From contig PKEB01000019.1 in NCBI GenBank assembly GCA_002863125.1, positions 1 to 64,000 of the forward strand: DNA of 64,000 nt, written 5' to 3'. The notes beneath the pieces are model-generated. The model did not search any database, had not been told where the DNA came from, and saw only the letters and a list, made by a program, of their open reading frames with translations. Of the stretch, positions 40,253 through 41,799 are shown in pieces (position 1 is the stretch's first letter; each line of letters begins with the position of its first letter). Made by a program: the position numbers and the translations under genes. Origin of the DNA: Flavobacteriales bacterium. Its GTDB lineage: Bacteria; Bacteroidota; Bacteroidia; Flavobacteriales_D; Sanyastnellaceae.

Positions 40253-41398
40253 TTAATTGTCCGATTTCACCTTGCCTGGGGAAGGCTCCACAAACGACCA
40301 ATTGCCCGAATTTCCGGGCCCTTGGGCTTGATTCTCCACGGTCGGCAACACCTGAATTTGCCGGTTCACATCGCCCGCTGAATCCAGGAGAAACAGCACT
40401 TCACCGGAAGCGGACAGGCCAAAAGGAAATCCACCTCGGCCTTTTTCGTACCCCAAGACAACCGCGCCCGGTTCCAAACACCCCGCTGGCAACTCCCAGC
40501 CCACTTCATTCAAATCATCCGTGATGCGCCATCCGGACAGCGAACATGCCGCGTCAGAGGCATTCTGCACCTCAATGTAATCCGCCGGGTCGCCCTTGGC
40601 ATGGACTTCGGTGATGCGAATCTGCTCAGCCGTGCACACCGAACACGTTCCGCTGAGCTTGGTGCGTAGGCCCGATGCGTAGGCCCGGGTCGGCGGGAGC
40701 CGCTTGAACGGCTGGTCCGGCTTGCGCAGGGTGTAGGACGTCTGGATGCGCAGTACGTGGAATCGCCACGGGTCCGGATCCATCCATTCGTTGCCCCACA
40801 AATAGGCCAATTCCGCCTCCCATTGCCTCGACAACTCGGCGCCCAAACTCGCTTGCCAACGCTCACTCCACTTGCCGCCCTGCCGATAGAAGACCTCCCA
40901 GCTCAGTTCCGCGTCGAGCCGTTTTGTGAGTCGGCGGCCGTATGCCGCGCGTGAACGAACCGTCGGCATCAACGGGTCAGCCTGCCCTTCTGGGCGCGGG
41001 CCGCTGAACCACGGGCGCGCCGCCCAGTTCTCGGTGGTCATAATGCGGGCGGTCCACTTGCCTTGCTCCGTTTTCCAGCGACCTATGGCGCGCAGCGCAA
41101 CCCGGCGGCGAGCGGCGTAGCCTCCGTCCAGCTGCTGGCGCTCGGAAAATCGCCACTGCACATTGAGGTCCCAGTGCTTGTTGAGCCGGTACTCCAATGC
41201 CGCGTCCACCAACCCCTGCTCATGCCATGAAGCTCCCTGCGTCCAGCGATTTTCCCACTGCAACGACCACGACCAGGTTTTGTTGAGGGATTGGCCCACG
41301 CCGGTGCCCACCCAGCACTCCGTGTCGGTGTATTGGCCGCTTGCCGAAAGGGCAAATGCGGCGCACGCAAGAAGTACGATGCCGCGCACAGTGCTCAA
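40253..41398 (-). CDS. DUF2490-like outer-membrane barrel fused to a lamin-tail domain
   Basis: A protein of up to 381 residues. A signal peptide (about 1-22, ending SASGQ) is followed by a beta-rich region (about 25-235) of the DUF2490 kind, with alternating Trp/aromatic strands such as NKTWSWSLQWENRW and NKHWDLNVQWRFSE. Residues about 250-381 form a lamin-tail domain (IRITEVHAKGDPADYIEVQN, LSGWRITDDLNEVGWELP, PSPGKVKSDN) with paired Cys. Lamin-tail domains are usually on free secreted proteins, so a fusion to a putative barrel is unusual. The start is either TTG at 41398, sharing bases with the stop of the upstream lipoprotein gene, or GTG at 41389; both keep the signal peptide. The function is unknown. 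Confidence 0.78.
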   Translation of the reverse strand: MSTVRGIVLLACAAFALSASGQYTDTECWVGTGVGQSLNKTWSWSLQWENRWTQGASWHEQGLVDAALEYRLNKHWDLNVQWRFSERQQLDGGYAARRRVALRAIGRWKTEQGKWTARIMTTENWAARPWFSGPRPEGQADPLMPTVRSRAAYGRRLTKRLDAELSWEVFYRQGGKWSERWQASLGAELSRQWEAELAYLWGNEWMDPDPWRFHVLRIQTSYTLRKPDQPFKRLPPTRAYASGLRTKLSGTCSVCTAEQIRITEVHAKGDPADYIEVQNASDAACSLSGWRITDDLNEVGWELPAGCLEPGAVVLGYEKGRGGFPFGLSASGEVLFLLDSAGDVNRQIQVLPTVENQAQGPGNSGNWSFVEPSPGKVKSDN

Positions 41399-41799
41399 AT
41401 GTCCTTATAAATGCGCAAGGCCCCTATGTCCACAGCTTCTTCGCCCGCCTCAATTTCAAACTCCCGAACGATGGCGATGTCCGGAGCGTTGTTGAACGGC
41501 GGCAGCGTATCCTCGCTGTAGACATACACCGTGTACGCCCCCGGCCGCAACCCATAAAAAGCGAATTCCCCGTCAAAGTTGGTCTGCACCCGGTCGTCCG
41601 GCCCCACCCGATTGCCGTACGTGATGAACACGTCTTCATCCGCAGCCGGCACGACCACGGCATTGGCTGGATTCGTGATGACAATGCGTTGCTCGAGTTC
41701 CACGTTACCCGTTACGGTCGTGATGCCGCCCTCGCCGGGAGTGCGCGTGCATCCAACCAAGGCGATGATCACAGCAAGGGACAAATAGATTATTCGCAT
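41395..41799 (-). CDS. Small lipoprotein with carboxypeptidase-regulatory-like fold
   Basis: A 134-residue lipoprotein with lipobox LVGC (Cys17). The mature part has a transthyretin or SdrD-B-like pattern: DVFITYGNRVG, FDGEFAFYGLRPGAYTVYVY and a C-terminal strand IGALRIYKDI. Such folds bind partners or act as stalk modules at the surface. ATG at 41799 is chosen for the signal peptide. It overlaps the start of the DUF2490/lamin-tail gene, so the two products probably work together at the outer membrane. Confidence 0.8.
   Translation of the reverse strand: MRIIYLSLAVIIALVGCTRTPGEGGITTVTGNVELEQRIVITNPANAVVVPAADEDVFITYGNRVGPDDRVQTNFDGEFAFYGLRPGAYTVYVYSEDTLPPFNNAPDIAIVREFEIEAGEEAVDIGALRIYKDI

Follow-up and report, generated by a model that had tools for sequence, protein, structure and literature searches.

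Comparative analysis of the window, the 64,000-nucleotide stretch of Flavobacteriales DNA studied here, identified a conserved pair of adjacent genes encoding a small lipoprotein and an outer-membrane barrel of the DUF2490 family, and the genomic link of this module to genes encoding VTC, DUF4956 and CotH proteins is well supported. The pair may be the route by which an anionic polymer produced by VTC and DUF4956 leaves across the outer membrane, a reading to which we assign a probability of about 0.4. In the window the barrel also carries a C-terminal lamin-tail domain (LTD), and the locus comprises the following features.

41395-41799, minus strand: lipoprotein gene, 134 aa, Cys17, directly upstream of the barrel-LTD ORF
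40253-41398, minus strand: barrel-LTD ORF, 381 aa, with signal peptide, DUF2490 barrel and LTD
41339..41398, minus strand: predicted signal peptide, residues 1-20 counted from TTG, with a helix at 2-19 in the AlphaFold2 model
40715..41338, minus strand: predicted outer-membrane barrel, DUF2490, KdgM/NanC-like, residues 21-228 (Pfam, model, VIA-align and hhalign)
40778..41317, minus strand: Pfam DUF2490 match, holding R51, R83, R99, R118, R148, R150, E168 and R180
40667..40714, minus strand: linker, residues 229-244
40256..40666, minus strand: LTD, residues 245-381, with the Pfam match at 257-344

The conserved unit is the lipoprotein-barrel pair more than the barrel-LTD fusion. Among 60 related genomes, the fusion protein had matches in 49 and the lipoprotein in 47 at E ≤ 0.001, and outside the genus only one genome (G029) had a match extending over both halves of the fusion. 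Public genomes were scanned using an alignment of the lipoprotein and the best 80 of 111 relatives were taken, leaving 77 evaluable loci after the exclusion of three with at most 50 nt past the lipoprotein match. The barrel match began within 100 nt downstream of the lipoprotein in 69 of these 77 loci, so that the pairing seen in the window by the sequence-only reading recurs widely, and pairing by chance was ruled out by these counts. In five further loci the barrel lay 1.5-2.0 kb downstream, with operon genes between, and in one 1.7 kb upstream; no barrel match was found at the remaining two (L155 and L179). At L155, a 518-residue ORF of another cluster (L155:8408-9964), itself without a barrel match, follows the lipoprotein relative. 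All 59 barrels of an alignment termed A3 matched DUF2490 at E ≤ 0.01. A3 consists of the window and 58 of the 80 loci, and the residue counts and the tree given below cover these rows only; the 22 loci omitted have incomplete, odd or distant downstream ORFs, are near-copies (L158, L159 and L165), or carry a different C-terminal extension (L148, L153, L172 and L173, and L171, which is cut).

Compared with five close relatives, the barrel had dN/dS ratios of 0.05-0.17, the LTD of 0.08-0.13 and the lipoprotein of 0.03-0.16, indicating that all three are maintained under purifying selection; in two of these relatives (L103 and L106) synonymous sites were close to saturated. The two genes had been described from the sequence as translationally coupled. 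Their adjacency stands, while the overlap of the TTG start of the barrel ORF with the lipoprotein stop codon in the window probably does not reflect the true start. Codon 4 of the barrel is GTG in all six sequences compared, the window included, and other barrel-LTD fusions begin at the matching Met-Arg, which points to the GTG at 41389, 5 nt past the lipoprotein stop, as the likelier start. With this start, coupling in the window would be by proximity. True overlap of the lipoprotein and barrel genes, often of 14 nt, occurs in many relatives.

Clustering of neighboring genes in more distant Bacteroidota revealed a recurrent gene order of CotH, lipoprotein, c23, VTC, DUF4956 and DUF2490, found for example at loci L074, L079, L081, L176 and L181, and without c23 at L072, L177 and L178. 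Pfam named CotH, VTC, DUF4956 and DUF2490 at L079. At L079, L176 and L181 the CotH protein carries both an LTD and a type IX secretion system (T9SS) tail, and at L080 the tail only. The c23 proteins, encoded between the lipoprotein and VTC (L079:7156-7728, L176:8420-8905 and L181:5797-6357), have approximately 160-200 residues with repeated short motifs, and the L079 copy had no Pfam match above cut-off.

Among the 60 relatives, DUF4956 was found in 55, VTC in 53, CotH in 59 and DUF2490 in 59. In 11 of the 55 genomes with DUF4956, DUF2490 lay no more than 2 kb from it (G027, G028, G030, G038, G039, G045, G046, G050, G054, G055 and G057; places cross-read by eye), and the lipoprotein was also within 2 kb in eight of these 11, the exceptions being G030, G038 and G055. 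VTC, DUF4956 and DUF2490 are close together at L185 in G030, and a single-sequence search found no lipoprotein in that genome. Presence or absence of the lipoprotein agreed with that of VTC in 52 of the 60 genomes (46 with both, six with neither; Fisher p 2e-4, kinship ignored); VTC without a lipoprotein detected by single-sequence search, in seven of the 60, counts against an export function.

In a phylum-wide sample of 148 genomes, 13 had DUF4956 at E ≤ 1e-45, and a barrel matching the profile of a distant barrel set (A5) lay within 2 kb in eight of the 13, compared with a chance expectation of about 0.03, estimated for two barrels in 4 Mb. None of 35 weaker DUF4956 matches in this sample had an A5 match within 2 kb, and A5 may miss other DUF2490 subfamilies. 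The lipoprotein profile matched 29 of the 148 genomes, with more than 50 bits in five. A clear lipoprotein match was present in only two of the eight genomes with a barrel beside DUF4956 (G082 and G166), which was counted against export and indicates that the lipoprotein is narrower in distribution than the barrel-DUF4956 link. In favor of export, 15 of the 80 loci have VTC and DUF4956 no more than 2 kb from the lipoprotein; against it, the other 65 lack them nearby. The VTC, DUF4956, c23 and CotH HMMs used for the 80-locus count were built partly from the same loci and the count is partly circular; Pfam-based searches served as independent checks.

In the window's own genome the searches for the lipoprotein, DUF2490, VTC and DUF4956 each returned a single match, and that for CotH returned four. 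The lipoprotein and barrel genes are in the window and VTC and DUF4956 are adjacent on contig C16 (L182:6500-7892). CotH is not contiguous with them, as the listed matches (two of the four) are on C3, about 119 kb away, and on C10. The VTC protein retains the Arg, Lys and Glu positions that are shared across 32 VTC sequences, and DUF4956 retains its RYRT motif; a search of PDB sequences with the VTC protein returned nothing below E 0.22. Genes near the VTC-DUF4956 pair look like what we take to be porU, porV and porP/sprF of the type IX secretion system, and similar neighbors are found at L188, L189, L191, L193, L194 and L195; the gene names murF-alr and tdk, like those of the por genes, are presumptive assignments of ours.

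Both the Pfam search and the structural model agreed with the N-terminal outer-membrane barrel proposed by the sequence-only reading. Residues 28-207 matched DUF2490 (PF10677) with 39.8 bits against a cut-off of 29.8, and NCBIfam gave no match for either the barrel-LTD protein or the lipoprotein. The AlphaFold2 model of the barrel-LTD protein, built with an alignment of 59 sequences (mean pLDDT 89.4, pTM 0.64), contained eleven long strands at residues 24-224 by DSSP and a short-stranded domain from residue 238 on. VIA-align placed KdgM first (4pr7, Z 16.8, rmsd 2.3, 157 residues aligned; 4fqe, Z 16.7), followed by NanC (2wjq, Z 16.3) and VhGalP (Z 15.9), a small lead over the NalP autotransporter barrel at Z 15.8. 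KdgM was likewise first, weakly (E 0.029), when PDB sequences were searched with the A5 profile. With hhalign, A5 scored 88.6% against E. coli NanC and OmpL together, 81.3% against NanC alone and 62.9% against OmpL alone, compared with 0.3% and 1.9% for Tsx and OmpW, two control barrels likewise used as single sequences; the value fell to 43.3% with A3 in place of A5. The KdgM family is characterized by a 12-stranded barrel, whereas eleven long strands were listed for the predicted model. Pfam contains a KdgM model, which did not match the window protein at E ≤ 10 and was absent among the seven families that the 59 A3 barrels matched. The barrel is therefore not filed as a member of the KdgM family (TC 1.B.35), though a remote sequence relation is detectable.

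Six positions were invariant in all 59 rows of A3 (R51, R83, R99, R148, E168 and R180), and the corresponding positions in A5 were invariant or conserved in at least 90%; R118 and R150 were basic in at least 70%. All eleven strands were two-faced, with a hydrophobic fraction of 0.53-0.80 on one face and 0.07-0.28 on the other. By alternation, the five invariant arginines, Glu168, R118 and R150 fall on the polar face, a placement that is only partly independent because this face was defined by the same counts and also holds the near-invariant W29 and F170. The second trait of the KdgM family, two basic strings across the lumen, may have a counterpart in R51, R83, R99, R118, R148, R150 and R180 on the predicted polar face. 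Summed per protein, the polar face holds approximately 16.9 basic and 12.6 acidic residues, so that its net charge is only moderately positive. The barrel is probably an anion channel, a conclusion held with some reserve since, in view of the acidic residues, it could also be a closed, salt-bridged barrel.

The lipoprotein model (pLDDT 85.8) matched the fold of transthyretin, hydroxyisourate hydrolase and CnaB domains, with Z scores between 9.4 and 8.2, in agreement with the transthyretin-like fold earlier predicted for this protein. Foldseek gave three matches at E ≤ 0.001 for the model, and no Pfam family matched above its cut-off. A motif C-x4-G-x-G-G follows the lipobox, and C17, G22, G24, G25 and G31 were invariant in 59 rows. 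In Bacteroidota the signal for surface export of lipoproteins is an acidic stretch after the cysteine, which varies between species. At least two acidic residues at positions +2 to +6 were found in five of the 59 lipoprotein rows, the window protein having TRTPG, and a surface-export signal is not evident from these residues.

These results can be combined in a model in which VTC would polymerize phosphate, or build another polyanion, in the cytoplasm and DUF4956 would pass it across the inner membrane, a step proposed by analogy with yeast VTC. The transthyretin-fold lipoprotein, in the periplasm, would dock on the barrel, and the two, the barrel acting as a KdgM/NanC-like anion channel with an arginine-lined lumen, would let the polymer through the outer membrane, while secreted CotH kinases with the T9SS tail would act outside the cell. 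In the window's lineage the barrel would have gained a periplasmic LTD at its C-terminus, and the module would serve VTC and DUF4956 encoded elsewhere. The analysis shows the pair with its conservation, the operon of relatives, the predicted fold and the conserved arginines and VTC residues; channel activity, substrate, direction of transport, docking of the lipoprotein, and the role and periplasmic side of the LTD are here inferred. Export in this form is supported by the operon order shared by relatives, the proximity of the barrel to DUF4956, the co-occurrence of the lipoprotein with VTC, KdgM as the top fold and PDB match, hhalign values above the controls, arginines and Glu168 on the polar face, the retained VTC residues and the single matches, with VTC and DUF4956 adjacent, in the window's genome. 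It is weakened by VTC, DUF4956 and CotH not being adjacent at the window locus, the acidic residues of the polar face, the eleven strands, the small fold lead, the 43.3% with A3 and the lack of a KdgM Pfam match. A more specific version, which we consider rather unlikely, is that many Bacteroidota possess a pathway specialized in secreting polyphosphate through both membranes, consisting of VTC, a DUF4956 pore, the lipoprotein and an arginine-lined porin and feeding the CotH kinases, with the porin of the window having its own LTD docking domain. Without such a pathway, no donor of phosphate is evident for the CotH kinases in the extracellular space.

The C-terminal lamin-tail domain reported from the sequence was corroborated by a PF00932 match at residues 257-344 (41.7 bits, cut-off 34.3), the second, short-stranded domain of the AlphaFold2 model corresponding to it. 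A search of PDB sequences with the LTD alone returned nothing below E 0.57. C255 and C285 were invariant in all 22 fusions and possibly form a disulfide, which would fit either the periplasm or the outside. The LTD was present in 22 of the 59 A3 barrels and absent from 37, and in a maximum-likelihood tree of the barrel part the LTD label required one change (support 99/96), a result that held in 98% of 200 bootstrap trees. The LTD was thus probably gained once and late, the lipoprotein-barrel pair being older. The same fusion was found in other genomes of the family, 22 of 114 having it in full at E ≤ 1e-12. These fall into two genera: two belong to genus g9 and 20 to the window's own genus, which has 22 genomes, those lacking the fusion being 80% and 64% complete. 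In two of the 22 fusion genomes (G009 and G020) the matched stretch contains one stop codon.

Acquisition of the LTD from a CotH protein of the same genome was unsupported, as the only other matches to the fused LTD at E ≤ 1e-3 came from a choice-of-anchor I protein on C24. That protein (L093:6968-10318) has a choice-of-anchor I domain and three LTDs 31-33% identical to the fused one; one CotH protein of the genome (L184) also carries an LTD. A tie between the fusion and break-up of the operon was likewise unsupported, since many LTD-free loci are also without VTC nearby. At loci L148:4251-5501, L153:8398-9645, L172:8398-9678 and L173:8407-9678, the barrel has a second type of C-terminal extension, approximately 190 residues long with hydrophobic segments; in the L148 and L153 proteins, which were scanned, Pfam named no family but DUF2490.

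In outer-membrane barrels, short turns are as a rule inside and long loops outside. The loops between strands 7-8 (sd 0.00) and 9-10 (sd 0.13) were nearly constant in length and those between 6-7 (sd 3.68) and 8-9 (sd 2.29) variable, which would place the end of the last strand in the periplasm and suggests that the LTD is located there. The pattern is less clean in the N-terminal half of the barrel, where loop 1-2 is also variable (sd 3.01) and misfits eleven strands in one register.

The sequence-only reading had suggested that the locus could be a two-part surface device, a barrel carrying or displaying its LTD with a lipoprotein partner. The barrel, the LTD and the lipoprotein are all real, and a two-part outer-membrane device with a conserved lipoprotein partner remains a reasonable description. 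Surface display of the LTD, together with a surface lipoprotein, is not supported: the loop pattern suggests that the C-terminus is inside, the lipoprotein has no clear surface-export signal, and the barrels of 37 of 59 relatives lack the LTD, which makes this arrangement very improbable. A periplasmic C-terminal domain would instead suit an anchor, in which a closed barrel, the lipoprotein and the LTD tie the outer membrane to peptidoglycan or a periplasmic partner in the manner of OmpA. The different C-terminal extension in another lineage and the acidic residues on the polar face are also in keeping with an anchor. We nevertheless regard it as unlikely, because the same 37 A3 rows have no LTD (rows with the other extension being outside A3) and the proteins that match best, by fold and by profile, form open channels.

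It is also conceivable, though rather unlikely, that a module of the same architecture carries an acidic polysaccharide or some other polymer bearing phosphate, which VTC and CotH modify or regulate, as proposed for CotH beside Gram-positive pel. In its favor, genes for CotH, a polyphosphate polymerase and DUF4956 adjoin pel in streptococci and clostridia (PMC7112168). KdgM has been termed a channel specific for acidic sugars (PMC4849052), and for NanC the basic strings are considered likely to aid diffusion of acidic oligosaccharides (PMC3706956). No glycosyltransferase was found among the proteins scanned with Pfam, a small part of the neighbors, and this speaks against a polysaccharide.

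In the TC classification DUF2490 is family 1.B.81, described as putative porins with functions not yet established (PMC4827864). The window barrel belongs to this family by its match above cut-off, and differs in the C-terminal LTD of its lineage, the regular lipoprotein partner and the link to VTC and DUF4956, of which no discussion was found in open-licence literature. Bacteroides thetaiotaomicron BT3498-99 are listed, without comment, as DUF4956 and DUF2490 genes (PMC10434189); adjacency of the two is thus itself already present in annotation. The KdgM/NanC family (TC 1.B.35) is alike in fold, in PDB sequence and in a profile score above two control barrels, whereas the window barrel has no KdgM Pfam match, eleven long strands in the model and only a remote sequence relation. 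A length of approximately 200 residues speaks against membership in the OprP/OprO phosphate and polyphosphate porins, OprP being a 16-stranded trimer (PMC4849052).

In Gram-positive bacteria, a regulatory role has been suggested for the CotH encoded with polyphosphate polymerase and DUF4956 beside pel, (PMC7112168), and genes for VTC-domain and CotH proteins are present in NELoc-2 of Clostridium perfringens (PMC11677781 and PMC2879425). The same three families occur together in some Bacteroidota relatives; the Bacteroidota version differs in adding an outer-membrane barrel and often the lipoprotein, and in having CotH proteins with a T9SS tail and, in several, an LTD. No description of an outer-membrane part of this system was found in open-licence papers, among the matches listed, nor were biochemical data for DUF2490 or DUF4956 found in open-licence literature. 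Yeast VTC links synthesis of the polymer to its passage through a channel that contains basic residues (PMC9911596). A VTC polymerase domain is combined with a membrane part in both systems, but DUF4956 is a different membrane domain and in Bacteroidota there is a second membrane to cross. The LTD (PF00932), mentioned in passing for corynebacteria (PMC12021427), is also part of CotH proteins and choice-of-anchor I proteins in the Bacteroidota studied here, whereas here it is on an outer-membrane barrel.

The unassigned DUF2490 porins would thereby gain a partner, a likely class of cargo and a pathway, and the CotH-VTC-DUF4956 group, reported but unexplained in Gram-positives, would gain a double-membrane version with an outer-membrane exit. 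If the proposed function is correct, the route of long anionic polymers to the cell surface and the phosphate source of the secreted CotH kinases could be tested in culturable Bacteroidota. This Flavobacteriales-type locus was also present in public metagenome-assembled records titled Chryseobacterium gleum or Euryarchaeota archaeon (L123, L126, L160, L166, L172 and L135), and these titles look wrong.
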